Positions 3,275-47,468 of a stretch of DNA of 64,000 nt are shown one piece after another. Source of the DNA: Acidobacteriota bacterium. Lineage in GTDB: Bacteria; Acidobacteriota; UBA890; WLXD01. Within the stretch, counting starts at the first letter, position 1. Each line of letters opens with the position of its first letter. A program made the translations under genes and the position numbers. The notes below the pieces were generated by a model, which was not told where the DNA came from, ran no database searches, and was given only the letters and a program-made list of their open reading frames with translations. The DNA is taken from NCBI GenBank assembly GCA_012103255.1, contig WLXD01000002.1, positions 434,001-498,000 on the forward strand, written 5' to 3'.

Positions 3275-5920
3275 ATGCGGTATCGACTTCGAGCCGACAG
3301 ACTTCAACGCGAACTTGCCAGGCGCAGGATCAGCCAGAATCGCTGGGCGCAGATCCTGGGATTGAGCAAGTCGCACCTGTCCATGTTGGTCAATGGTCAG
3401 CGTCCGTATCCCGAGGAGACGACGCGCCGCAAGTTGCAAGAGGGACTGGGCGTCCGGCTCGAAGATCTCTTCGAACTCGAACCCGACGCGCACTCCCCGC
3501 CCGAGAACAACCTCATGGAATCGCTACTCCAGGATCTCCGACACGCCTGGCGCGCTCTGCGAGCGCGGCCTGCCTTCGTTGCCATCATCGTGGTCACGCT
3601 TGCCCTTGGTGTCGGCGCCACGACGGCGATGTACAGCGTCATCGACGCCACTGTTCTGCGGCCGCTGCCGTTCGATGAACCCGAGGGCATCGTGCGCCTG
3701 TTCGGCGTGAGCCCGCAGTACGGCGTCACCCGAGGACAACTGTCGCTGCCGAACACACTCGACTGGCGCGAGCGCACTCGAGTGTTCGAGTCGATCGCGC
3801 TATACCGAGGTCGAACGTTCAACGTTTCCGGAACAGGCGAACCGGAGCGCACTCTTTCGTTGCTGATTTCCGACCAATATCTGGAGCTACTGGGGATCGC
3901 TCCACAGCTGGGGCGCGGATTCTCTCTGGACGAACATCGCTCCGACGGTCCTGACGTGGCCATGATCAGCGACACGATGTGGCGCACGCGCTTCGATAGC
4001 GCGCCCGGGGTTCTCGGCCGGACCGTGCGCGTCGACACGACGGAACACGTGATCGTCGGGGTTCTGCCGCCCTCCTTTGATGACACGCGACTCACGCTTG
4101 GCTGGGATGTCGCTCCTCAACTCGTGCTCCCGCTCGGGCTCGATAGCGAGGAACGCAGTGCATTCTTCCTGCTGGGCATCGGTCGGCTGGCTGAGGGAGG
4201 CTCGCTCGCAGAGGCGACCGCGGAGGCTGATGAATTCGGGGAATGGCTGCGCACTACGTACCCGGAAGAGACGAGCAGCCACTACCTCGCGGCGGTGCCG
4301 CTCCACGAAGTCGTAGCAGGGGGTCTCGAAACGCGACTGACTCTCTTTCTTGGCGCGGCAGCCCTTGTCCTCCTCGTCGGGTGCATCAACGTGGCGAACC
4401 TCATGCTGGCCTATGCCACGTCGCGCCGCCGCGAAGTTGCGGTCCGCAAGGCCCTCGGCGCAAGCAAGGCACGCCTGATCCGCCTCACACTCGTGGAAAG
4501 CTTGCTTCTGTCCGCAATGGGCGGGCTAGGTGGAGCTGTCCTGGCCGCGTTCGCTCTGGCGGCCGCGGCACCAATGCTGCCGAACTACCTGCCCCGCCAC
4601 GACCTGGTCGGACTCGACGGTCGAGTCCTGGTTTTCGCGTTCGCAGTCAGTGCCGCGACCGCGGTGATCTTCGGACTTCTACCCGGGCTTGGCATGGCAC
4701 GTACCAGCGCACGCGATGAACTCGTAGCTGGCGTCGTCGGACACGCGGGGAAACAGCGCATGCACCTGCTCCGCGGTCTCGCGGTAGCGCAGATCGCCAT
4801 GGCTGGCCTGCTGGCGATTGGCTCGGGGCTCGTCGTGAAGAGCTATTCGAGTCTGGTGAGCGTCGACCCAGGCTTCCAGGCCGAAGGCCTGCTGACCTTC
4901 TACACGATCCCGCGCTACAGCTTTGGTACGAGGGATGAGGGGCATGATTTCGTTGCTGCCCTCGAACAACGGCTCGCCGCACTGCCTGGAGTGAGCTCCG
5001 CCGGCGAAATCAACTTCCTGCCATTCTCGGACAACGAAGCCGGGCAAGGGATCGACATCGAAGGTCGCGACAATCCGGAAGGCGTCGTCGACATCGTGCA
5101 GTATCGGGCGGCGTCAGCCGGGTTCTTCGGCACGCTGGGCGCAGAGCTGGTCGCGGGTCGCGACTTCAACAACGCCGATATGTCCAACACCGAGGTGGTG
5201 ATCGTCGACCAGACGATGGCCGATCGATTCTGGCCCGCCGGTGACGCAGTCGGGCAGCGATTCAGAGCCGGCGGCGAAACGCTCTATCGAGTGATCGGCG
5301 TTGTCGAGGACACCAAGTGGCATGGCTACGACGACGAGGCCCTGCCCCACATGTTCGTTCCGTATCGTGAGGATCCTTGGAGCAGCACACGCGGATTCGT
5401 CCTTCGTGCCGCCGGCGATCCGACGCAGCTCGCGGCAGCCGTGCGTGCCGCGGTGCAGGAGCTCAGCCCGAATCAGTCGATCTACGACCTGCAGACCATG
5501 CAGCAACGCATGACCACCTCAGCCGCAGGCACGAGATTCTCGCTAACGATGCTGGTGGCCTTCGGCGCCACCGCGCTCCTGCTGGCGGTCGTCGGCACCT
5601 ACGGCGTATTTGCCTATTCGATCGGCCAACGACGGGCCGAGATCGGCATTCGTCTCGCCCTCGGCGCAGAAGCCGGCCGCGTGCAACGTAGCGTGCTGAC
5701 GCAGAGCCTAGGCGTGGCCGCAGTGGGGGTCATCATCGCGATCATCGGCTCGCGCTTCTTCACGGGAACGGTCTCCAACATGCTCTTCGAGGTCGGGCCC
5801 AACGACATCGGAGTCATCGCAACGGCCGGCCTTGTGATGTTGGCAGCCGGCCTCGTCGCAGCCTGGCTCCCCGCCCGACGCGCCGCCCAGGTCGACCCGG
5901 CCCGCGCCCTCCGAACTTAG
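3275..5920 (+). CDS. ADOP-type permease with N-terminal XRE/Cro helix-turn-helix
   Basis: 881-residue fusion. Residues about 10-66 form a Cro/CI-type HTH (RRISQNRWAQILGLSKSHLS, then MLVNGQRPYP), with the expected helix 2-turn-helix 3 pattern. The ADOP core then starts at MESLLQDLRHAWRALRARP: first membrane helix near residues 102-125, first FtsX block from about 350 (RREVAVRKALGASKARLI), second from about 755 (RRAEIGIRLALGAEAGRVQR), ending PARRAAQVDPARALRT. The HTH sits where the other ADOPs here have their LYPR-type prefix, and no separate PadR precedes it. The gene is intact and divergent from a PadR/ADOP pair. The ribosome site at the ATG is weak. It may be a membrane-tethered regulator or an autoregulated permease; that role is inference. 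Confidence 0.9.
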   Translation: MRYRLRADRLQRELARRRISQNRWAQILGLSKSHLSMLVNGQRPYPEETTRRKLQEGLGVRLEDLFELEPDAHSPPENNLMESLLQDLRHAWRALRARPAFVAIIVVTLALGVGATTAMYSVIDATVLRPLPFDEPEGIVRLFGVSPQYGVTRGQLSLPNTLDWRERTRVFESIALYRGRTFNVSGTGEPERTLSLLISDQYLELLGIAPQLGRGFSLDEHRSDGPDVAMISDTMWRTRFDSAPGVLGRTVRVDTTEHVIVGVLPPSFDDTRLTLGWDVAPQLVLPLGLDSEERSAFFLLGIGRLAEGGSLAEATAEADEFGEWLRTTYPEETSSHYLAAVPLHEVVAGGLETRLTLFLGAAALVLLVGCINVANLMLAYATSRRREVAVRKALGASKARLIRLTLVESLLLSAMGGLGGAVLAAFALAAAAPMLPNYLPRHDLVGLDGRVLVFAFAVSAATAVIFGLLPGLGMARTSARDELVAGVVGHAGKQRMHLLRGLAVAQIAMAGLLAIGSGLVVKSYSSLVSVDPGFQAEGLLTFYTIPRYSFGTRDEGHDFVAALEQRLAALPGVSSAGEINFLPFSDNEAGQGIDIEGRDNPEGVVDIVQYRAASAGFFGTLGAELVAGRDFNNADMSNTEVVIVDQTMADRFWPAGDAVGQRFRAGGETLYRVIGVVEDTKWHGYDDEALPHMFVPYREDPWSSTRGFVLRAAGDPTQLAAAVRAAVQELSPNQSIYDLQTMQQRMTTSAAGTRFSLTMLVAFGATALLLAVVGTYGVFAYSIGQRRAEIGIRLALGAEAGRVQRSVLTQSLGVAAVGVIIAIIGSRFFTGTVSNMLFEVGPNDIGVIATAGLVMLAAGLVAAWLPARRAAQVDPARALRT

Positions 5921-5988: not shown

Positions 5989-7206
5989 ATGCGCAAACCA
6001 CTCGCCGGATGCGTCTTGCTGGCGTCGGCATGCTCCGGGAGTGCGGTGTTGCCGCGCGAGCCGACCATCGAACTGATCGACGGAGTGCGCACGGTAACGA
6101 ATCACGAGCCTGCTTGGCCCGCGGGCAAGGAGTGGCGTATCTCGCATACGCCACTCCTCGAGATCGGTGTTGATGAAGGTGCGGCGGGCGAGATGCTCAC
6201 CAGGCCGCGTGGCGTGGCCGCATTGCCGAGCAGCGAAACCCTCGTCGCCGACGGTTCCAAGCAACTGCGCGTTTTCGACGACCGGGGCAGGTTCATTCGC
6301 GCGTTCGGGCGGCCAGGCGACGGGCCGTGCGAGTTCAACGAGATCGGAGTCCCCTACGTCGCCGACGACGGTTCGGTCGCCGTGCCTGACTGGCGCACAC
6401 GCAAGGTTGCCGTATTCGATTCTGCTGGTGACTGCCTCGTAGAACATTCGCTCCAGCACGCCGGCGAAGGCATGACCGATCTTGCCGGACGGCTCGGCGG
6501 AGGAGATCTCGTCCTTACAAACGCGCAGTGGGCTTGGGGCACGCCGAGGGCCGAAATTTCCTGGGTGGAGGCGGACATCCTGAGCATCGCGCCCGGGAGT
6601 CCCGACGTCACCCACCTGAGCCGCGTGCGGCAGTTGGAGTGGAATGGGGCCTTCGAAAACCTGAAAGGCGCTTCGTTCGGCTCTGCGGTAGCTCGGGGCG
6701 CGAATGTGTACTTCACGGACGGCGAGGACTACACGATCACGCGCTACGACACGACGGGTCGGCTGGAGGTACGTATGCGGCTCGTCATCCAGCCCGAGCC
6801 GATAACGGACGATGACATCGCGACCTACAGGCGAGCCGCACTCAGCTGGCACGAACGCCGTCGATCTCCGCGGCCGCCAGTAGAGATCGTCGACTCGTGG
6901 CACTACGCGAGCTCCTACCCCGCCTACCGGACCATATTGATCGACGAACTGGGCCACGTCTGGGCAGCGCGCCAGGGTGGATTCGACGAGTGGATCTGGC
7001 ACTTTCGCGATGAACTTCCCGATCTCGAACTCGCCGCGAGCAACACGTGGGACATCTATGCTCCGGACGGTGTTTGGCTCGGGAGCCTCCTTTTGTCATA
7101 CGACAGATCTCCTCGGCTAGTGCGCGGCAACCGCGTCTACTTCATTGGTGAATCGGAGGCTGGCGAGGCGCGGATTTTCGTGCACGAACTCTCCCGGCCG
7201 TCGTAA
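5989..7206 (+). CDS. Six-bladed beta-propeller (NHL-like) probable lipoprotein
   Basis: About 405 residues from the ATG at 5989 (MRKPLAGCVLL); a TTG 12 bases upstream is also in frame. A short hydrophobic leader ends in ASAC, a weak lipobox, so outer-membrane or periplasmic location is likely. The body shows propeller-type repeats (RPRGVAALPSSETLVADGS, QLRVFDDRGRFIRAFGRPGDGPCEF, VAVPDWRTRKVAVFDSAG) typical of the six-bladed propeller proteins of Bacteroidota and Acidobacteriota. No catalytic motif is seen. It follows the XRE-ADOP by 68 bp on the same strand and precedes the TPR-thioredoxin gene, so the three may share a transcript. Function unknown. Confidence 0.75.
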   Translation: MRKPLAGCVLLASACSGSAVLPREPTIELIDGVRTVTNHEPAWPAGKEWRISHTPLLEIGVDEGAAGEMLTRPRGVAALPSSETLVADGSKQLRVFDDRGRFIRAFGRPGDGPCEFNEIGVPYVADDGSVAVPDWRTRKVAVFDSAGDCLVEHSLQHAGEGMTDLAGRLGGGDLVLTNAQWAWGTPRAEISWVEADILSIAPGSPDVTHLSRVRQLEWNGAFENLKGASFGSAVARGANVYFTDGEDYTITRYDTTGRLEVRMRLVIQPEPITDDDIATYRRAALSWHERRRSPRPPVEIVDSWHYASSYPAYRTILIDELGHVWAARQGGFDEWIWHFRDELPDLELAASNTWDIYAPDGVWLGSLLLSYDRSPRLVRGNRVYFIGESEAGEARIFVHELSRPS

Positions 7207-9599: not shown

Positions 9600-9902
9600 T
9601 TGAACGAAACGATGTATCGGGTGTTGCTGGCGCTGCGATCGAGCGACCAGCAGGCATCCGACATCCTCGACGGGCTGCGTGACGCCGGTGGCGAGGTTCC
9701 CTCGCTTGCGGCGTTCTACCGCAGCCTGAAGAGCGGCCTCGATGAGGGCTGGCTCGAGATCAGCGGCAATGACGCCAGTGGTCCGGGTCGACCCCGTCAG
9801 ATCTATCGACTGACATCCTTTGGCGGCCGCGCCGTCGACAAGGAAGCCCGCCGACTGCAGGCGCTAGCTTCCCTGGCGCTGAGCGGCACGGCCGGGAACT
9901 GA
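9600..9902 (+). CDS. PadR-like winged-helix regulator
   Basis: 100 residues from a TTG start with GGAGG at 9589-9593. It has the PadR wing and recognition helix (SLAAFYRSLKSGLDEGWLEI, GRPRQIYRLTSFGGRAVDKE) but the first helix lacks the usual HGYAI motif (LRSSDQQASDILDGLRDAGG), so it is a divergent member. The C-terminal helix is short. It is followed after 14 bp by the split ADOP at 9917/10082, which it presumably controls. Confidence 0.85.
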   Translation: MNETMYRVLLALRSSDQQASDILDGLRDAGGEVPSLAAFYRSLKSGLDEGWLEISGNDASGPGRPRQIYRLTSFGGRAVDKEARRLQALASLALSGTAGN

Positions 9903-9916
9903 CCGGAGCACGGAAC

Positions 9917-10078
9917 ATGTCGGGCAGGATGGCGTGGCTGGAGCGCGCTCTGCGTTTCGCCTGCATGCTCTATCCGCGTAAGTTCCGCACTCTGCTCGCC
10001 GCAGATATGGCGACGCTGTATGTGCGGGAAACGCAACGAATCGCCGCCAACGCCGGCGCGGGACATGCCTACGTCTAA
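9917..10078 (+). CDS. ADOP N-terminal prefix fragment (53 aa)
   Basis: Short frame reading MSGRMAWLERALRFACMLYP then RKFRTLLAADMATLYVRETQ, the cytoplasmic LYPR-type prefix that begins most ADOPs here. An in-frame TAA at 10076-10078 separates it from the permease body, which continues in the same frame from the GTG at 10082. Either one substitution has broken an originally continuous gene, or the prefix is made as a separate 53-residue peptide with re-initiation 3 bases after the stop. Both pieces are kept intact apart from the stop, which suggests the change is recent or tolerated. Confidence 0.6.
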   Translation: MSGRMAWLERALRFACMLYPRKFRTLLAADMATLYVRETQRIAANAGAGHAYV

Positions 10079-10081
10079 GCG

Positions 10082-12580
10082 GTGACGACTTTGTTCGGCA
10101 CGCTGTTCGGCGCGATTCCGGCCTGGCTGAAGGATGTCCCCGGCCCGGGGAAACAAATGGACAGCTTCTTTCAGGACGTACGGTTCGCGTGTCGCAGTCT
10201 CGCCAAGAGTCCGGCCTTCACAGCGGTGGCAGTTGCCTCCTTGGCGCTTGGCATCGGGGCCAACACTGCGATCTTCTCGGTCGTCAACACGGTGTTGCTG
10301 CGCGGTCTGCCCTACCCCGGCGCCGACCGTCTCGTGGTGATCTGGGAATCGAACGATACCGTCGGTGTGGAACGCACCGGGCCTTCTGGTGCGACCTTCC
10401 TCGACTGGCGCGAGCGCGCCGAGTCCTTCGAAGAAATGGTGCTATTCCAGGCGGGGTCTACCACGGTCACCGATCTGTCCGAACCTGAGCAGGTTCCCGC
10501 GATGCGGGTAACCGTGAACTTCTTCGATCTCCTCGGCGTAGACGCCGCCCACGGCCGCGGATTCCTCCCCGCGGAAGGCTCTGGCGGCCGTGTCGCGTCC
10601 GTAGTGGCGACCGATGGGTTCTGGCAACGCGCCTATGGCGGCAACCCAAAGGCGATCGGCGACGAGTTCCAGGGCGACCACCTCCCGCTTACGCTTGTGG
10701 GTGTGTTGCCGCGCCATTTCTGGTATCCGCTCAAGAGCGACTTGTTCGTGCCGTGGGACGAGGACGAACTGCGCAGCCAGAATCGGGCGCGCCGGGAGTA
10801 CGGCGTGCTGGCTCGGCTCCGCCCGGACGTCACTCTGGAGCAAGCTCGGGCGGAGATGCGCGCCCTGAGCAAGCAACTGGCGGCCGAGCATCCGGAAATG
10901 CAGGGCTGGGGGACATACATGGCAATGGCCGAGGAAGAGGCGAGCGGTTTCCTCCGGCCGGCCCTGCTAGTTCTCTTCGGCGCGGTGGGATTCGTGCTGT
11001 TGATCGCGTGCGCAAACGTGGCCAACCTCATGTTGGCCCGAGCGAGTGATCGTCAGCGCGAGATCGCCGTGCGCGCCGCGACCGGAGCGTCGCGGGCGCG
11101 CCTTCTGCGCCAGCTCCTCACGGAGAGCCTACTCCTGGCCGCCGGAGGTGGAATCGCCGGACTCGCGCTGGGCTACGCGGGCGTCGAAGCCCTGCGGCTC
11201 ATCGTGCCCGCGGAGATCCCGTTGCCAAACGGTGGCACCACCGTGCTGGTCCCACAGTTGACCGTCGCCCCGATTGTCATGGCCTTCTCGGCTATCGCAG
11301 CTTTGGCTACCGGCCTGATCTTCGGGCTCGTGCCGGCGTGGCACACCTCACTGATCGAACTATCCGATGTTTTGCGCGGGGGCGATCGTGGCAACACGGC
11401 ATCCAAACGCGCATCCGCAGCGCGCCGCATCCTGGTCGCCGGGGAGATCGCGATGTCAGTGGTGCTCGTGACCGGCGCGTTCCTGATGATCGAGACCTTC
11501 TGGAACCTGAGTCAGGTCGATCCGGGGTTCCGTGCGGCCAACCTGCTCACGCTGCAGCTCGAACTACCTACAGACTCTCGCTACGAGACCAATTCCGAAC
11601 GCGCCGACTTCTACAAACTCATGATGCGCGAGCTCAGAGCGATACCTGGCGTGGAGACAGCAGGACTCAGCGAGGTGCTGCCGCTCGACAACACGATGAG
11701 AATGATCGAGTTCCGTCGGTTGGACGACAATCTCGCTGCCGGCGACGAGGGCATCAGCGTGGATTACAACCTCGCCGATGCCGGCTACTTCCAGTCCCTG
11801 GGCGTACCTCTTGTGCGCGGCCGCATGTTCGAGGCGATCGACAATCAGGACGTTCGTGCCGTGGCCCTGGTGGACACCGAGTTCGCCGATGCCTTCTTTC
11901 CACAGGGCGCCGTGGGTGAACGTTTCACAGCGTGGGGTGGAATCTTCGAGATCATCGGGGTGGTCGGTGCGGTGCGGAACGCCGGATTGTCTGAGCGGCC
12001 GCGGCCGATGTTCTATCTGCACACGGGCCAGTCCGCCGACGACATGATGAGTGTTGTACTTCGCAGCCGTGGAGACATCGGCGCTCTTGCCCAGGCCGCC
12101 AAGGAAGCGGTGTGGCGTGTGGACCCCGAACAGCCGGTGTTCAACGTGCGTCGAATGGAAGATGTGGTTGCGCAAGGCACCTCCTCGCACCGACTCACGT
12201 TGACTCTCCTCGGTATCTTCGGGCTCCTCGCCGTATTCATGGCAGCTCTAGGCGTGTACGGGGTGATGTCTTACTCGGTCGGGCAACGAACCCGGGAACT
12301 CGGCCTGCGACGTGCTCTTGGAGCGGGCTCGAACCAGCTGTTGCAAATGATCGTCGCCGAGGCCACTCGCGTCGCGGCCGCCGGAGTGGCGATCGGCGTG
12401 GCTGCAGCGCTGGTTGTCGGTCGCGTCATGTCGTCGATGCTCTACGGCGTGAGTTCCGCCCAGCCGCTGGCCTTCCTGCTCGTTGCAGCCGTGTTGATGA
12501 GCGTCGCCGCGCTGGCAGCGCTGGTTCCGGCACGGCGGGCCGCCGGCGTCGACCCCATGATCGCGCTCCGTTCCGGCTAG
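10082..12580 (+). CDS. ADOP-type duplicated permease (body, split from its prefix)
   Basis: 832-residue permease body. The ADOP core begins at MDSFFQDVRFACRSLAKSP (internal ATG 10157 is an alternative start), with first membrane helix [20 protein letters not shown], first FtsX block from about residue 293 (QREIAVRAATGASRARLLRQ), second periplasmic domain, and second FtsX block from about 706 (TRELGLRRALGAGSNQLLQM). It ends PARRAAGVDPMIALRSG. Upstream and in frame, across a TAA, lies the prefix at 9917. Preceded by the PadR at 9600 in the same operon. Membrane transport or envelope role by family; substrate and energy source unknown. Confidence 0.92.
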   Translation: MTTLFGTLFGAIPAWLKDVPGPGKQMDSFFQDVRFACRSLAKSPAFTAVAVASLALGIGANTAIFSVVNTVLLRGLPYPGADRLVVIWESNDTVGVERTGPSGATFLDWRERAESFEEMVLFQAGSTTVTDLSEPEQVPAMRVTVNFFDLLGVDAAHGRGFLPAEGSGGRVASVVATDGFWQRAYGGNPKAIGDEFQGDHLPLTLVGVLPRHFWYPLKSDLFVPWDEDELRSQNRARREYGVLARLRPDVTLEQARAEMRALSKQLAAEHPEMQGWGTYMAMAEEEASGFLRPALLVLFGAVGFVLLIACANVANLMLARASDRQREIAVRAATGASRARLLRQLLTESLLLAAGGGIAGLALGYAGVEALRLIVPAEIPLPNGGTTVLVPQLTVAPIVMAFSAIAALATGLIFGLVPAWHTSLIELSDVLRGGDRGNTASKRASAARRILVAGEIAMSVVLVTGAFLMIETFWNLSQVDPGFRAANLLTLQLELPTDSRYETNSERADFYKLMMRELRAIPGVETAGLSEVLPLDNTMRMIEFRRLDDNLAAGDEGISVDYNLADAGYFQSLGVPLVRGRMFEAIDNQDVRAVALVDTEFADAFFPQGAVGERFTAWGGIFEIIGVVGAVRNAGLSERPRPMFYLHTGQSADDMMSVVLRSRGDIGALAQAAKEAVWRVDPEQPVFNVRRMEDVVAQGTSSHRLTLTLLGIFGLLAVFMAALGVYGVMSYSVGQRTRELGLRRALGAGSNQLLQMIVAEATRVAAAGVAIGVAAALVVGRVMSSMLYGVSSAQPLAFLLVAAVLMSVAALAALVPARRAAGVDPMIALRSG

Positions 12581-12613: not shown

Positions 12614-12651
12614 AATAGCGCTAAGTTAGCTATATACGACTTAGCGCTATT
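12614..12651. promoter_or_regulatory. Perfect 13-bp inverted repeat upstream of PadR (operator)
   Basis: Arms AATAGCGCTAAGT (12614-12626) and ACTTAGCGCTATT (12639-12651) are exact reverse complements with a 12-bp spacer containing TATATA. Each arm carries an AGCGCT palindrome. The element sits immediately before AAGGAG (12653-12658) and the ATG of the PadR at 12667, so bound repressor would cover the promoter and ribosome site. Its sequence is unlike the other PadR dyads in the window. Confidence 0.65.
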
Positions 12652-12666: not shown

Positions 12667-13038
12667 ATGACGCTTACGCCCGAAGTTGCTGAACAGCTTC
12701 CGCTCGCTGGAATGGCCTTCCAGGTGCTGCTGGTGCTCGCCGCTGGCACCAACCACGGCTACGGCATCGCCAAGGAAGTTGAAGACCGCACGCGCGGGCG
12801 AACGCGTGTTGGCACCGGCTCGCTCTATCTGTCGATGGCGAAACTGGCGGATCAGGGACTGATCGAACAGTGCCAGCCGCCGGCCGGGCGCACCGACCGG
12901 CGGCGGCGCTACTACGAGCTCACCGACTTCGGCCGCGAGGTGGCGATTGCCGAGGCTAGCCGCCTGGCCGAGCTGGAGCAGGTTGCGGGAGAGCGCAACC
13001 TGCTCCGACCCGGTGCGCTGGGCGCGATGGAGGCGTGA
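12667..13038 (+). CDS. PadR-family transcriptional regulator
   Basis: 123-residue PadR repressor. Family marks: NHGYGIAKEVEDRTRGRTRV, then GTGSLYLSMAKLADQGLIEQ, and the wing RRRRYYELTDFGREVAIAEA. The ATG has AAGGAG 8 bases upstream and a strong dyad operator before it. Unlike its siblings here, the gene 6 bp downstream is not a complete ADOP but an ADOP-like prefix joined to a TonB domain, so this PadR is inferred to control an energy-transducing protein. Confidence 0.93.
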   Translation: MTLTPEVAEQLPLAGMAFQVLLVLAAGTNHGYGIAKEVEDRTRGRTRVGTGSLYLSMAKLADQGLIEQCQPPAGRTDRRRRYYELTDFGREVAIAEASRLAELEQVAGERNLLRPGALGAMEA

Positions 13039-13044
13039 ACTGAC

Positions 13045-13948
13045 ATGGGCACCCCTATGCCTCCCGCGCCCGGCGTCAACTGGGCCGCCACGTTGTTCCG
13101 CATGCTGGCTCGACTGCTGCCGGGATGGCTCCGTCGCGAATGGGGCGACGATCTGGTCACCACAGCCTCGCGGCGTGTTGCCGACGCTCGCTGCGAAGGC
13201 CATCTGGCGCTCGTCGCGGCATTGGCCACCGAGTCGATCTCGATACTTCGCGCGGCGCTGCAGTCGCGCGCCTACTCGCCCGAGTTCATCAACGGGAGGA
13301 AAGCGATGTACGAAGAAGACAACCGAACCCCTACGCACGGCGTGGTTGGCAGCTCTGGTGATCCACTTCATCGCATTCACCGCTGTGATCCCGATCGGGC
13401 CCGGAGGACTCGAGGCTACGCCGGAGGAGGAGTACACCGTGGTGAAGATCTATCGCCCGCCGCCACCGCCTCCCGAAACGCCGGAGCGACGCGTGGTGAA
13501 GCGGCGCGTGAACCCGGTACCGATTCCAGACCAGACGCCGGACGAGCCCGAACCGTACGTGGACGAGGAGTACGTCTACGAGACGACGGCTCCGGAAGTC
13601 GCTGACGTCGAATTCACGATGGCAGGGCCCGCGGGCCCGCCACCTCAGGAACAGAGCGTGTACCGCGTCGGCCCCAACGTGCAGCGCCCGGAACTGATCG
13701 AACGCGTGCTCCCGGAGTACCCCGAGCTCGCAAAACGTGCACGTCTGGAGTGCGTGGTAATCATGGAGGCGCGCATCGACCGGGAAGGGAACGTGGTCGA
13801 CCTGGAGGTGCTCCGCCCCTGTGGCCTCGGTCTCACGGAATCAGCCCTTGATGCGGTGCGGCAGTGGAAGTATGCCCCGACCATGGTCGACGGCCGGCCC
13901 GTCGAGATTGTGCTTACAGCAACGGTGACATTCCGCCTCACAAAGTAG
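13045..13948 (+). CDS. ADOP-like prefix joined to TonB C-terminal domain protein, frameshifted
   Basis: The first 87 residues match the cytoplasmic prefix of ADOPs (LFRMLARLLPGWLRREWGDD). An internal ATG at 13306 with GGGAGG upstream starts MYEEDNRT. At the C4 run 13328-13331 the frame must lose one base to continue into RTAWLAALVIHFIAFTAVI (membrane helix), a proline-rich periplasmic linker (RPPPPPPETPERR) and a classic TonB C-terminal domain (LPEYPELAKRARLECVVIME, then ALDAVRQWKYAPTMVDGRPV). Restored length is about 300 residues, or about 213 if translation starts at 13306. TonB proteins carry proton-motive energy to outer-membrane receptors; no receptor gene is seen here. The prefix-TonB linkage is unusual. 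Alternatively these are two overlapping genes. Confidence 0.7.
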
Positions 13949-13996: not shown

Positions 13997-16189
13997 ATGT
14001 CCCCTGCCCTCTCGAGGAGCAGCAACTTGCAGTACCCCAGGCGCGTCGCTTGCCTAGGTGTCGTCTTGGCGCTGATGCAACTGGCAACAGCATCGGCCAC
14101 TCCACAGGCGCAGTTCGGAACCTCAACCGAGGTGCTGCGCATCCAGGTGGGGATCGTTGACGCCGAAGGCAACCCGGTTACCGGACTCCAGAAAGAAGAC
14201 CTCCAGCTGCTGATCGGAGGCCAGCCGCGCCAGATTCTCGACCTGTACGAGGTGGACGCCTCGGAGCTGGGCATCTCGGCGGACGCTTTGGCCCATGAGG
14301 CCCCTCCGCCTCCGGTTGACGGGCTGCAGAGCACCACGCTCAGGCCCACAACGGGCGCCGAACTCCCCTCCGCGGCACGGCGACGCTTCCTGCTGTTCTT
14401 CGACCTCGGGTTCATGAGTCGCCGCGGTCTCGGCTACGCGCGTGGCGCCGCCGAGTCCTTTCTCAAAGACGTTGCCCAGGGCGGCGACCTCGTGGGTATG
14501 GCGACCTACAGCGCCTTCCGCGGACTGCAGTACCACGTGCCGTTCACCTCCGACCGCGACCAGATCCTCGCCGCCGTCGAACGCCTGAACGTGGGGCGAT
14601 CTAGCGAGGCGATCGAGCAGGACAACGCGGCGCTCGACCTGCAGGGGCTCGCACTCATTCTCGCCAACAGTCCGCTGGGCGACGCCGGCGGCAGCGATGC
14701 CAGCATTGCCGCCGAACTCGCCTCCACCCGGCAAGCACTGGAGGGCGGTCGCGTGATCATGGCGCTCGAGCGCCTGGCAGAGGAGGTCGCGCCGATCCAG
14801 GGGCGCAAACACATCGTGTACTTCTCCCAGGGAATTCCTGACGCACTGATGACGGGTTTGGAGGATGGCTCGGCCCTCCTGCAAGACATGATGATCGCCA
14901 TGGAGTCGGCGCGGCGGTCCGATGTGGTCATCCACTCCTTCATGCCAGCGGCGATGCCCGATTCCGGCGTCCACGATATTAGGGAGATGACACCGCAAGG
15001 CGGAGGTGGGAACTTCCGGGTGCTTGGCGACCGTTCCTACCTCAACTATGCCGCCGGTGAGACTGGGGGCTTCTCGGTCTACTTCCGGCACCAGTTGCGA
15101 CGCGGACTGAACGCAATGGAAGAGGCTACGCGCTCGTACTACGTTCTCTCCTTCCCGCTCGCGCCATCCGACCGTGAAGCCGTAGATCTTCGCGTGGTGC
15201 CGCAGCGAGCGGGCGTATCGGTGGCGTGGGCTCCGGCGCGGCTCTCCGTCCCCGACTGGCAAGAGCATTCGGTAGCCACCCGCCAGCTGCAGATCGCCGA
15301 CGCCCTGGAAATTGGCAACGACGCTCGCTCCATGGCTCTCGACGTGATGGCGATCCGCACCGACCGGCGCAACGGCTATGGTCGCGTTGCCGTCGCGGGC
15401 GAGATCCCGGCGCAGCAACTCCGCGACCTGGTCGAAGAGCGTGGCGATGACTCACTGGATCTTGAGGTCCTCGGCCTCGCTCTCCGCCCGAACGGTGAAG
15501 TCGCCGACTACTTCCGCACTCACATCAACCTGGACGAAGTCGGTGCGCAGCTCGAGCGTGTGAGCATCCCACTGCGGTACCAGAACATTCTGGTGGTGGA
15601 GCCCGGCGCCTACTTCGTAAAGGTCCTCGTGCGGGAGGGCAGTGTGAGTCGCCTGGCATCTCGCAGTCTGCGCGTCGAGATTCCGGCGTCGGACCCCGAC
15701 GGCATGAACATCTCGACTCCGCTCGTCGTGACGCCTGCCAGCAACGGCCGCGTCATCCAGGGAGTCGACCCGGCGAACCCGCCATCGCACCGGATGCACC
15801 TGCCGCTCGACTACCCGTTCGTGGTCGGCGCGCAGGAGCTGGTACCGGCTATCCACCCCGCTTCCGTGGCCGGCGCGGACATCGACGTCTACGTGACCGT
15901 CCAGAACCCGAGCAGGCACCCGTTCACCGGCGACACGGACATCCTTGCGGAGACCTGGCTGCAGGACGCCGACGGCAACCGTTTCGTGCTGAGCGACTTC
16001 CGCCCTCTGGCCTCGACCTTCGATGAGACCACGAGCAACTTGCGCATGCTGCTGCGGCTGTCGCTCTCGCCCAGCTTGCCGAGCGGCGCCTACTTCTTGG
16101 TCGTGCAGACGCACGACCGCATCTCGGGAGAAGCCGTCGGCTCGTACGCCGATCTGGTAATCGAGCCCGCGTTCGAGGCGGTCCGCTAA
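13997..16189 (+). CDS. Secreted VWFA-related protein
   Basis: 730 residues with an N-terminal hydrophobic leader (RVACLGVVLALMQLATASAT) followed by IQVGIVDAEGNPVTGLQKED, the Ig-like opening typical of the acidobacterial VWFA-related family. The von Willebrand A region spans roughly residues 130-390: core strand RRFLLFFDLGFMSRRGLGYA and the later strand RKHIVYFSQGIPDAL. The metal site is degenerate (DLGFMS instead of DxSxS). The C-terminal half is beta-rich and has no recognised domain. Probably periplasmic or surface protein binding. The ATG at 13997 was chosen because it precedes the leader; the ribosome site is weak. Its stop overlaps that of the convergent MscS gene by 4 bp. Confidence 0.8.
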   Translation: MSPALSRSSNLQYPRRVACLGVVLALMQLATASATPQAQFGTSTEVLRIQVGIVDAEGNPVTGLQKEDLQLLIGGQPRQILDLYEVDASELGISADALAHEAPPPPVDGLQSTTLRPTTGAELPSAARRRFLLFFDLGFMSRRGLGYARGAAESFLKDVAQGGDLVGMATYSAFRGLQYHVPFTSDRDQILAAVERLNVGRSSEAIEQDNAALDLQGLALILANSPLGDAGGSDASIAAELASTRQALEGGRVIMALERLAEEVAPIQGRKHIVYFSQGIPDALMTGLEDGSALLQDMMIAMESARRSDVVIHSFMPAAMPDSGVHDIREMTPQGGGGNFRVLGDRSYLNYAAGETGGFSVYFRHQLRRGLNAMEEATRSYYVLSFPLAPSDREAVDLRVVPQRAGVSVAWAPARLSVPDWQEHSVATRQLQIADALEIGNDARSMALDVMAIRTDRRNGYGRVAVAGEIPAQQLRDLVEERGDDSLDLEVLGLALRPNGEVADYFRTHINLDEVGAQLERVSIPLRYQNILVVEPGAYFVKVLVREGSVSRLASRSLRVEIPASDPDGMNISTPLVVTPASNGRVIQGVDPANPPSHRMHLPLDYPFVVGAQELVPAIHPASVAGADIDVYVTVQNPSRHPFTGDTDILAETWLQDADGNRFVLSDFRPLASTFDETTSNLRMLLRLSLSPSLPSGAYFLVVQTHDRISGEAVGSYADLVIEPAFEAVR

Positions 16190-44310: not shown

Positions 44311-44673
44311 ATGACAACTGAAGGCCCGCGCAAGCACTTGCCGCTTGCGCCACACGACTTCGAGATTCTGCTTTCACTCAGCCACGGCCCCATGCACGGC
44401 TACGCCACCATCACGGCGATTCGCGAACGCACGGGCGGTGACATGGTGCTCGGTACGAGCACCCTCTACGCAGCCGTCCGCCGTATGCGGCGTGCGGGCC
44501 TGATCGAGGAAGCCGGCGAACGTCCCGCGCAGTCCAACGGACCGCCACGGCGTTACTGGCGCATGACCGAGCGCGGTGACGAGGTGCTACGCCTCGAAGC
44601 CGACCGTATCCGACGTGCCGCGGCTGCAGCCGATTCGGTGCTGGGCGATTCCGCGGAGATGCGCAAGTCGTGA
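44311..44673 (+). CDS. PadR-family transcriptional regulator
   Basis: 120 residues from the ATG at 44311 (MTTEGPRKHLPLAPHDFEIL); the frame is open from 44269. PadR marks: MHGYATITAIRERTGGDMVL, STLYAAVRRMRRAGLIEEAG and the wing PPRRYWRMTERGDEVLRLEA. Its stop overlaps the GTG of the next ADOP (GTGA). No strong dyad was found upstream; only a weak CGTG-N8-CACG around a CTATAG. Confidence 0.92.
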   Translation: MTTEGPRKHLPLAPHDFEILLSLSHGPMHGYATITAIRERTGGDMVLGTSTLYAAVRRMRRAGLIEEAGERPAQSNGPPRRYWRMTERGDEVLRLEADRIRRAAAAADSVLGDSAEMRKS

Positions 44674-47468
44674 GTCCCGCCCTGCCCCGTATCGTCCGAC
44701 TGTACTGCGGCCTCAGCCGCACGCTACTGCCACACGACCTGTGGGCAGAGCACGGTCGCGACATGAACGAGGCCTTCTATGACCTCTACACGGAGGCGGC
44801 GAGCAAGCCGACGGTCAGCGAGAGAGCACGCCTAATAGGTCGCGAGCTCATCAGTCTTTTCTCGACAGCGATCGAAGAGCGGCGGTCGACGCGTCGTCAG
44901 CGTAGGCACCTGCTCGCGCTACGTGCGCGTCCACGAACTTCAGGCCACGGGCAGCCGCCCGACAACAATCCCCTTTCCGGTATCACCGACATGTTTGACT
45001 CCGTCCTCAGCGACGTTCGCTACACGCTCCGCACCCTACGCAAGAGCCCGGTGTTCGCTGTCGTTGCCATCGCGACGCTGGCCCTCGGCATCGGGGCCAA
45101 CGCCGCGGTCTTCTCGGTCATCAACTCGGTGCTCCTGCGGCCTCTGCCGTACGAAGCGCCCGAGGACCTCTACGTCGTCTGGACGAACTTCGGTCGAGAC
45201 CTGCCGCAGAACTGGCTCTCGGGTCCCGAGTTCGTGGAAATTCGCGACCTGAACACGAGATTCGAGGAAGTCGCGATTTACACGGGGGCGGCCTGATCCA
45301 TGACCTCGTCTGGAAGCGACCCCGCACGGGTGAACGGCGCCGCGGTCTCAGGCTCGTTCTTCGATCTACTAGGCGTCAGCGCGGCCCAGGGGCGGACCAT
45401 CAACGCGCAGGACGACGAGGGTGGCCAGCGCGTGGTCACGATCTCGCATGGCTTCTGGCAGGCGCGACTCGGCGGACGCGACGACGTGCTCGGCAGAGCT
45501 CTGACACTCGACGGCATGGACTTCGAAGTCGTGGGCGTCCTGCCTGAGGACTTCGGCGTCTACCACCCGAACGTGCCATCGCCCGACGTTGTGGGTCTGT
45601 TCGTCCCCTACCAGCCCACATACGGCGCGGAGTACGCCAGCATGTCGCGCGGCAGCCACTTCTTGCTCGGCTTTGCACGCGCCTCCAACGGCGTCAGCCC
45701 GGCTCAGGTGCAAGCCGACATGGACAATGTCGCGCTCGCGATGAACGAAACGGGGAACTACGACTTCGACGGCTGGGGCCTTACGAGCTACCGGCTGCAC
45801 GAGGATCTGGTCGAGGACTTCCAGGGCGCGCTTGTGATCCTTCTGGGAGCCGTGGCCTTCGTTCTGCTTATCGCGTGCCTCAACGTTGCGAACCTCCAGC
45901 TCACGCGAGCCTCCCAGCGCGGCCGCGAGATCGCGCTGCGAACTGCCGTGGGCGCCGCTCGCGGGCGTGTTCTTCGGCAGCTGCTCACCGAGGCTCTCGT
46001 CCTTGCCGCCGCCGGCGCCATCGCCGGGCTGGCCCTGGCCTCGTGGCTGATCGCGGCTCTGCAGGCCGTGATGCCTGACGGTCTCCCTCGAGCACAGGAG
46101 ATCGGGCTAGACGGCACGGTTCTTTCGTTCGCCGCCGTCGCCACACTTGCGACCGTGGCCCTCTTCGGCGTCCTCCCCGGCTTCCTCGCGACGCGGACGA
46201 ATCTCGCGGACACGCTTCGCGACTCTGGCCGGACGACGTCCGGTGGCCCGGGGGGCGGCAAGATTCGTTCGATTCTTGTCGTCGCGGAAGTCGCCGCCGC
46301 GCTCGTCTTGCTCGTAGGTGCTGGCCTGATGCTGCGCTCCTTCAACAGCCTCGTGAATACTGATCCGGGCTACCGGACCGATTCCATGCTGACGATGCGG
46401 GTGTCACTTCCGACTCCGAAGTACGACGCCGACACCGCGCAGATCTTCCAGGCGCAGCTACTCGAACGCACGCGGGCGCTCCCGGGCGTCATCTCCGCCG
46501 GCGGCGTCAGCGGGTTGCCGCTTTCGAACATCGCTGGATCGGGAACAACGCTCGCGGAGTTCAGCGAGGCGGAGGACGTCGACGAGTTCGGTGGCTACAA
46601 GTTCATCGAAGCGGACCGGCGTTCGGTCTCTCCCGGGTACTTCGAGGCAATGGGTGTAGAGCTTCTCGCTGGCAGGTTCTTCGACGAGACCGACACCGCC
46701 GACTCCATGCCCGTGGTCATTGTCGACGAGAGCTTCGCGCGCCGTTTCTGGGGCGAGAAGAACCCGATTGGGCAGCGCGCATCGATCAACTTCCGCAATG
46801 GGATGGATGGCGAAGGGACCGTGGTCACGTGGAGTGAGGTCGTGGGAGTGATCCGCCACGCGCGGACCCAGGATCTGGCCGAGGACGGTCGCGAACAGTT
46901 CTACGCGCCGTGGGCGCAGCGGGTACGCCTCGGCATGCACGTGGCGATTCGCACCGATGGAGATCCGACCCAGATAGCGGCGGCGGTGAACCAGGCGGTG
47001 TGGGATCTTGATCCCGACCAGCCCGTATCGGATATCGCCACTATGAGTGAGCGTGTGGATGCCGTGGTGGCCGGCCCTCGCTTCGTCTCAGTGCTTCTTG
47101 GTTCCTTCGCAGCCGCCGCGGTGGTGCTCGCTGCGATCGGCATCTACGGCGTCATCGCCTACTCGGTCGGTCAGCGAACGAACGAGATCGGCGTACGCAT
47201 GGCACTCGGAGCCTCCAAGAATCGGGTACGCCAGATGGTCCTGCGCGAGGGCATGGTGGTAGTGCTCCTCGGCGTGGGGCTCGGAGTCGCAGCTGCGCTC
47301 GGATTGACGCGCCTGATCTCGAACATGCTCTACGAGGTAACGAACACCGATCCGGCGACCTACGTTGGTGTCGTGGTCTTGCTCGTGGGTGTTGCGATCA
47401 CCGCATGCCTGGTGCCCGCACTTCGCGCAACTCGAATCGAGCCGGTCACCGCCCTGCGGGAAGAGTAG
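44670..47468 (+). CDS. ADOP-type duplicated permease interrupted by an in-frame TGA
   Basis: 932 codons in one frame. Prefix RLYCGLSRTLLPHDLWAEHG, core MFDSVLSDVRYTLRTLRKSP, first membrane helix [20 protein letters not shown]. An in-frame TGA at 45294-45296 falls in the first periplasmic domain (EEVAIYTGAA-stop-SMTSSGSDPARV), where sister proteins are continuous. The rest (45300-47468, 722 residues) is intact: FtsX blocks from about residues 385 (GREIALRTAVGAARGRVLRQ) and 803 (TNEIGVRMALGASKNRVRQM), ending PALRATRIEPVTALREE. A TGG-to-TGA change, readthrough or an error are all possible. A bidirectional terminator follows. Confidence 0.87.

Follow-up and report, generated by a model that had tools for sequence, protein, structure and literature searches.

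Among the closest described counterparts of the locus considered here is the HAAS-PadR dyad (Ravi et al. 2024; PMC11237479), which has been proposed to take the place of two-component systems. In such a dyad, a standalone PadR gene adjoins a membrane protein with an N-terminal cytoplasmic domain, which is helical (PF22564 HAAS, DUF1700). In the available text of that report, the membrane partners include FtsX/MacB permeases, and TonB is not named among them. In Listeria, LltR represses its own operon, which includes a DUF1700 membrane protein (PMC6624303). Three further families bear on the comparison: the ADOP permeases with padR_acidobact (TIGR03434, TIGR03433), built on a duplicated MacB/FtsX core; the permease prefix domains 1 and 2 (NF038403, NF038404), which occupy the ADOP prefix position and are PadR-linked; and the TonB energy transducers, with a transmembrane (TM) helix bearing a histidine, a proline-rich linker, and a TonB_C domain behind a short cytoplasmic tail.

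At the present locus, a PadR gene is followed by an ADOP-type cytoplasmic prefix, here called type A, and then by the parts of a TonB. As in the dyad, a standalone PadR gene is adjacent, both at this locus and in an intact relative (G008, below). Unlike the dyad, neither the type-A prefix nor its relatives gave a HAAS/DUF1700 match, although PF22564 was in the library, and no GxP motif is conserved: the single invariant proline column of the type-A alignment lies outside any such motif. Because of these two differences, membership in the dyad is not claimed; the unit is proposed, by analogy, to work like one. Searches of type A against Pfam, NCBIfam, and the PDB gave no credible match. It also falls below the cutoffs of NF038403 and NF038404, which examples of prefix types C and B do reach, and thus fits neither model; it pairs with another PadR clade as well. 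With the ADOP permeases the locus shares prefix type and PadR subfamily, but TonB takes the place of the permease core, and domain searches of the focal and G008 proteins found no ADOP units (two MacB_PCD plus FtsX). The core being absent, the gene is not an ADOP. Judged by its domain content, it is instead a TonB, one that differs from other transducers in carrying about 95–115 aa of cytoplasmic prefix and linker in place of a short tail, and in adjoining PadR rather than exbD. Literature searches found no PadR-TonB fusion.

Layout and reading frames of the locus

The whole stretch analyzed, hereafter the window, covers 64,000 nt of contig WLXD01000002.1 (GCA_012103255.1) from an Acidobacteriota bacterium; all positions follow its numbering. 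The features are:

12614–12651, no strand: candidate PadR operator, perfect palindrome AATAGCGCTAAGT-N12-ACTTAGCGCTATT (repeat search, shuffles)
12667–13038, + strand: PadR-family repressor, 123 aa (PF03551, 60.9 bits)
13045–13326, + strand: type-A prefix (ADOP-type, cytoplasmic) with linker, frame 1 (prefix HMM, 37.4 bits)
13295–13308, + strand: GGGAGG and ATG (13306) in the prefix frame (sequence)
13327–13331, + strand: frame break, one surplus base at ACCCC compared with the intact orthologue (frameshift-aware alignment)
13340–13396, + strand: TM helix AWLAALVIHFIAFTAVIPI, frame 2, with TonB-type histidine (hydropathy maximum)
13451–13660, + strand: proline-rich periplasmic linker of TonB (sequence)
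13712–13948, + strand: TonB C-terminal domain and stop codon (PF03544, E = 4.2e-18; TIGR01352)

The palindrome lies between the stop of the preceding ADOP and the start of PadR, 15 bp before the PadR ATG, and has 13-bp arms around a 12-bp spacer. It scores 13, whereas none of 300 shuffles exceeded 9, and the 11-bp core pair is found nowhere else in the 4.8-Mb genome. The initial annotation had called it a perfect operator. The inverted repeat is indeed perfect; that it serves PadR as an operator is likely. No strong counterpart was found 5′ of the G008 PadR. Among 45 upstream regions of PadR genes in the focal genome, a palindrome scoring at least 9 was present in 29%, versus 0.8% of shuffles. 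These repeats are perfect or near-perfect and differ in sequence from locus to locus. As a set, they resemble a large collection of insulated repressor–operator pairs.

The prefix begins at the ATG at 13045, 6 bases 3′ of the PadR stop, and residues 1–76 of this frame match the N-terminal prefix seen in ADOP permeases. The HMM was built from 33 ADOP prefixes of the same order; the G008 prefix scores 51.6 bits and the best of 4000 shuffles 14.1, against which the focal score listed above may be set. In trees, the focal PadR belongs to the clade of PadRs that accompany type-A prefixes. At the other end of the gene, the TonB C-terminal domain reaches 66 bits for PF03544 (cutoff 24.6) and 46.4 bits for TIGR01352, with 63.9 bits for the G008 protein. 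There is a single N-terminal TM helix, whose conserved histidine is common to the focal gene, the G008 protein, and the housekeeping TonBs, followed by the proline-rich linker. All of the parts that the initial annotation placed after PadR are present, but they do not form one continuous frame in this sequence. Frame 1, which encodes the prefix, stays open to 13605, TonB lies in frame 2, and a search of frame 2 for an ATG start near the TM helix found none. A frameshift-aware DNA alignment to the G008 protein placed the surplus base at ACCCC (13327–13331), and changing between two penalty settings did not move it. Upstream of the break, frame 1 has a GC3 of 0.79; downstream, frame 2 has one of 0.77. 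With coding-like values on either side, both halves look coding. The earlier suggestion that TonB starts separately at the ATG at 13306, behind GGGAGG, and that prefix and TonB are separate products is not supported, as this ATG is in the prefix frame and the matching ATG of G008 is out of the TonB frame.

The one-base break is either a sequence error or a recent mutation, and because of it the window copy of prefix-TonB may be silent or yield a product that stops after the prefix. Conceivably, the locus is decaying or misread, such that the prefix would be a soluble fragment of at most 186 aa and TonB would go untranslated here, function being retained in the intact relative. The break itself argues in this direction, as do interruptions in other ADOPs of the window. 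On the − strand, the ADOP at 17–2735 loses its reading frame at a homopolymer (C7) near 2271–2340, likely a sequence-length error or slippage. A type-A prefix at 9949–10082, which follows a PadR (9600–9902), is cut off from the ADOP at 10082–12580 by an in-frame TAA (10076–10078), and an ADOP with a type-A prefix at 44580–47468 is interrupted by an in-frame TGA (45294–45296). The two clean stops favor real decay in the ADOP gene family; the C7-run break favors homopolymer error as the cause at prefix-TonB. Against decay, homopolymer errors in the assembly could account for the break without any loss of function, and the coding-like codon-position GC on both sides implies that any mutation is recent. 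A decaying or misread locus is thus possible, though on balance we doubt it.

The intact relative and the origin of the TonB part

The gene order recurs in G008 (contig JADFNY010000157.1), a genome of the same order and another family. There, PadR is followed by prefix, TM helix, linker, and TonB in one continuous frame of 325 codons. Within the order, the focal PadR finds its best match in the PadR in front of this gene, at 57% identity, the next reaching 45–49%; the two are each other's closest, and the remaining close PadRs examined are located before a prefix and an ADOP. An intact frame beside an orthologous PadR shows that the prefix-TonB fusion is genuine. Together with the HMM match, it also upholds the view of the initial annotation that the prefix is common to permeases and a TonB protein, and the check proposed there, a search for prefix-TonB proteins in relatives, yielded this one intact case. 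Had TonB possessed an ATG of its own in relatives, this would have spoken against a fusion; the focal/G008 pair shows no such arrangement, although a prefix-less sister TonB occurs in G005.

Further cases are scarce. A search of the phylum, covering 396 genomes with the best five candidates scored in each, returned no third prefix-TonB, which does not prove that none exists. In named genomes, TonB alone as query gave no close orthologues, and the fused prefix-TonB alignment gave one match, JADFNY010000157.1, the same contig as that of G008. The TonBs of the genus and family genomes are all prefix-less. The members found number two, of which the window one is frame-broken. Among most of the listed short-frame cases away from contig ends, no second TonB partner was found for the type-A prefixes of the order; those checked are broken ADOPs, with one exception. 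In that exception (L253; G008:C203), the frame that holds the type-A prefix is 239 aa long, and the stretch examined gave no ADOP match. At another locus (L251; G000:C9:76300–79700), the type-A prefix frame overruns the ADOP core out of frame, and the core starts with an ATG of its own where the two meet. This is possibly a split prefix, and its layout resembles that of the focal gene.

In the TonB tree, the focal and G008 halves are sisters (97/69), and next to them comes the prefix-less TonB of G005, beside exbD-linked housekeeping TonBs, one of them from the focal genome itself. No exbBD lies beside the focal gene; an exbD-tonB operon is present elsewhere in the genome. Since the G008 fusion is intact, the PadRs are orthologous, and the TonB halves are sisters, the fusion is taken to be real, to have arisen from a duplicated TonB, and to be common to the two families. 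The G005 sister (G005:C724, L182, about 6400–6500) and an ABC transporter operon are divergently oriented, and the palindrome GTGATATATACATATATATCAC lies between them. Another TonB clade is repeatedly found near an acidobacterial VWA-domain gene of the TIGR03436 type (L004, L009, L015, L035), and a VWA-domain gene also lies 48 bp downstream of the focal TonB (13997–16189). The latter was considered as part of the PadR-prefix-TonB unit and set aside, as it is not conserved in the stretch of the G008 contig examined.

PadR–prefix matching among ADOP permeases

A wider context comes from 67 ADOP hits in the focal genome, whose 5′ regions comprise 66 distinct upstream regions. Four types can be distinguished among the PadR-adjacent prefixes: B (NF038404), C (NF038403), D, and the focal type A, for which Pfam and NCBIfam have no model. 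When mapped onto a tree of 37 PadRs, these types match four PadR clades perfectly, requiring 3 changes, the minimum; the mean for shuffled labels is 16.3, and 0 of 200 shuffles went as low. With PadRs of seven further genomes included, one being distant, the count is still 3, versus 19.2 for shuffled labels. The tree of full ADOP cores behaves otherwise: the prefix labels need 17 changes versus 16.5 when shuffled, and 156 of 200 shuffles are as low. Some supported branches unite different prefix types. This core tree is poorly resolved, so that the apparent randomness in part reflects lack of signal; the contrast is suggestive, and swapping is not proven by it.

Presence and absence follow the same line, in tables counted by hand from listings. 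In the focal genome, none of 8 prefix-less ADOPs has a PadR upstream, versus 42 of 58 others (Fisher p 0.0001); in a distant genome (G367), the figures are 0 of 25 versus 3 of 5 (p 0.002). Three focal-genome ADOPs have a Cro/C1-type helix-turn-helix (HTH) in the prefix position (window 3275–5920; L085; L215, C1 near 1425000), and all three lack an upstream PadR of their own. The HTH of the first scores 24.4 bits for PF13443, over the cutoff, and in L215 the N-terminal HTH is followed by a Ser/Thr-kinase-like domain. These proteins are, in effect, membrane-bound transcription factors in the prefix slot. An HTH in this slot without its own PadR is consistent with a link to transcription through the N-terminus.

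The main rival to a signaling mechanism is linkage of the adjacent genes. The match of PadR and prefix would then reflect mere neighborhood and co-copying: the two genes are directly adjacent, about 0–100 bp apart, and both would be carried along by recombination at the conserved beginning of the permease core. The prefix might serve, for example, in membrane targeting or dimerization, with PadR sensing a soluble ligand in the classical manner. Such linkage fits less readily with the absence of any re-pairing in the 37 focal-genome pairs, despite many apparent re-pairings of prefix and core, with the absence of PadR wherever the prefix is absent, and with the ADOPs that hold a DNA-binding domain in the prefix position. 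We consider it rather unlikely. Instead, the data say that PadR goes with the N-terminal prefix rather than with the permease, in at least four matched PadR-prefix pairings, and so bear out the link between prefix and PadR that the initial annotation had surmised. As prefix type matches PadR clade and not core, and ADOPs without a prefix lack PadR, PadR and prefix behave as a cassette, which suggests one put on differing membrane partners, TonB among them. A programmed +1 frameshift at ACC-CCT-A, joining prefix and TonB into a small, regulated amount of fusion, would suit a break in a C4 run at a domain junction between frames not separated by an in-frame stop, but it is most improbable, given that the prefix-frame codons ACC CCT are to our knowledge not among known slippery proline sites, that the G008 fusion needs no shift, and that homopolymer breaks occur elsewhere in the focal assembly.

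Proposed mechanism and its meaning

The reading we favor, and think reasonably probable, is a two-gene autoregulated unit, PadR followed by a TonB with an ADOP-derived type-A prefix, in which PadR and prefix form a portable cassette. PadR would most likely repress its own promoter at the palindrome (12614–12651), and the type-A prefix would most likely bind its PadR subfamily at the membrane. The HAAS-PadR dyad (PMC11237479) and the autoregulated Listeria PadRs (PMC6624303) are the models for the proposed self-repression and prefix capture. A change of state in the fused membrane part, here TonB, would alter the capture or release of PadR and hence gene expression. The TonB part would presumably work with ExbB/ExbD and outer-membrane receptors. 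Many permease cores would have received the cassette, as would, on one occasion, a TonB that arose by duplication of the housekeeping gene. A bolder extension, which we advance only tentatively and regard as doubtful, is that TonB acts as a transmembrane sensor, signaling receptor engagement or its energized state inward through the PadR-binding prefix, alongside dozens of insulated PadR-prefix-operator cassettes in Acidobacteriota, available for any membrane protein.

ADOP permeases, which lack an ATPase and for which no signal is known, occur by the dozen in Acidobacteriota genomes. A prefix on TonB means that the cassette is not bound to permeases, and the role of the prefixes and their PadRs can now be reduced to a binding test with built-in specificity controls. 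If confirmed, the proposed unit would link a TonB directly to a transcription factor.
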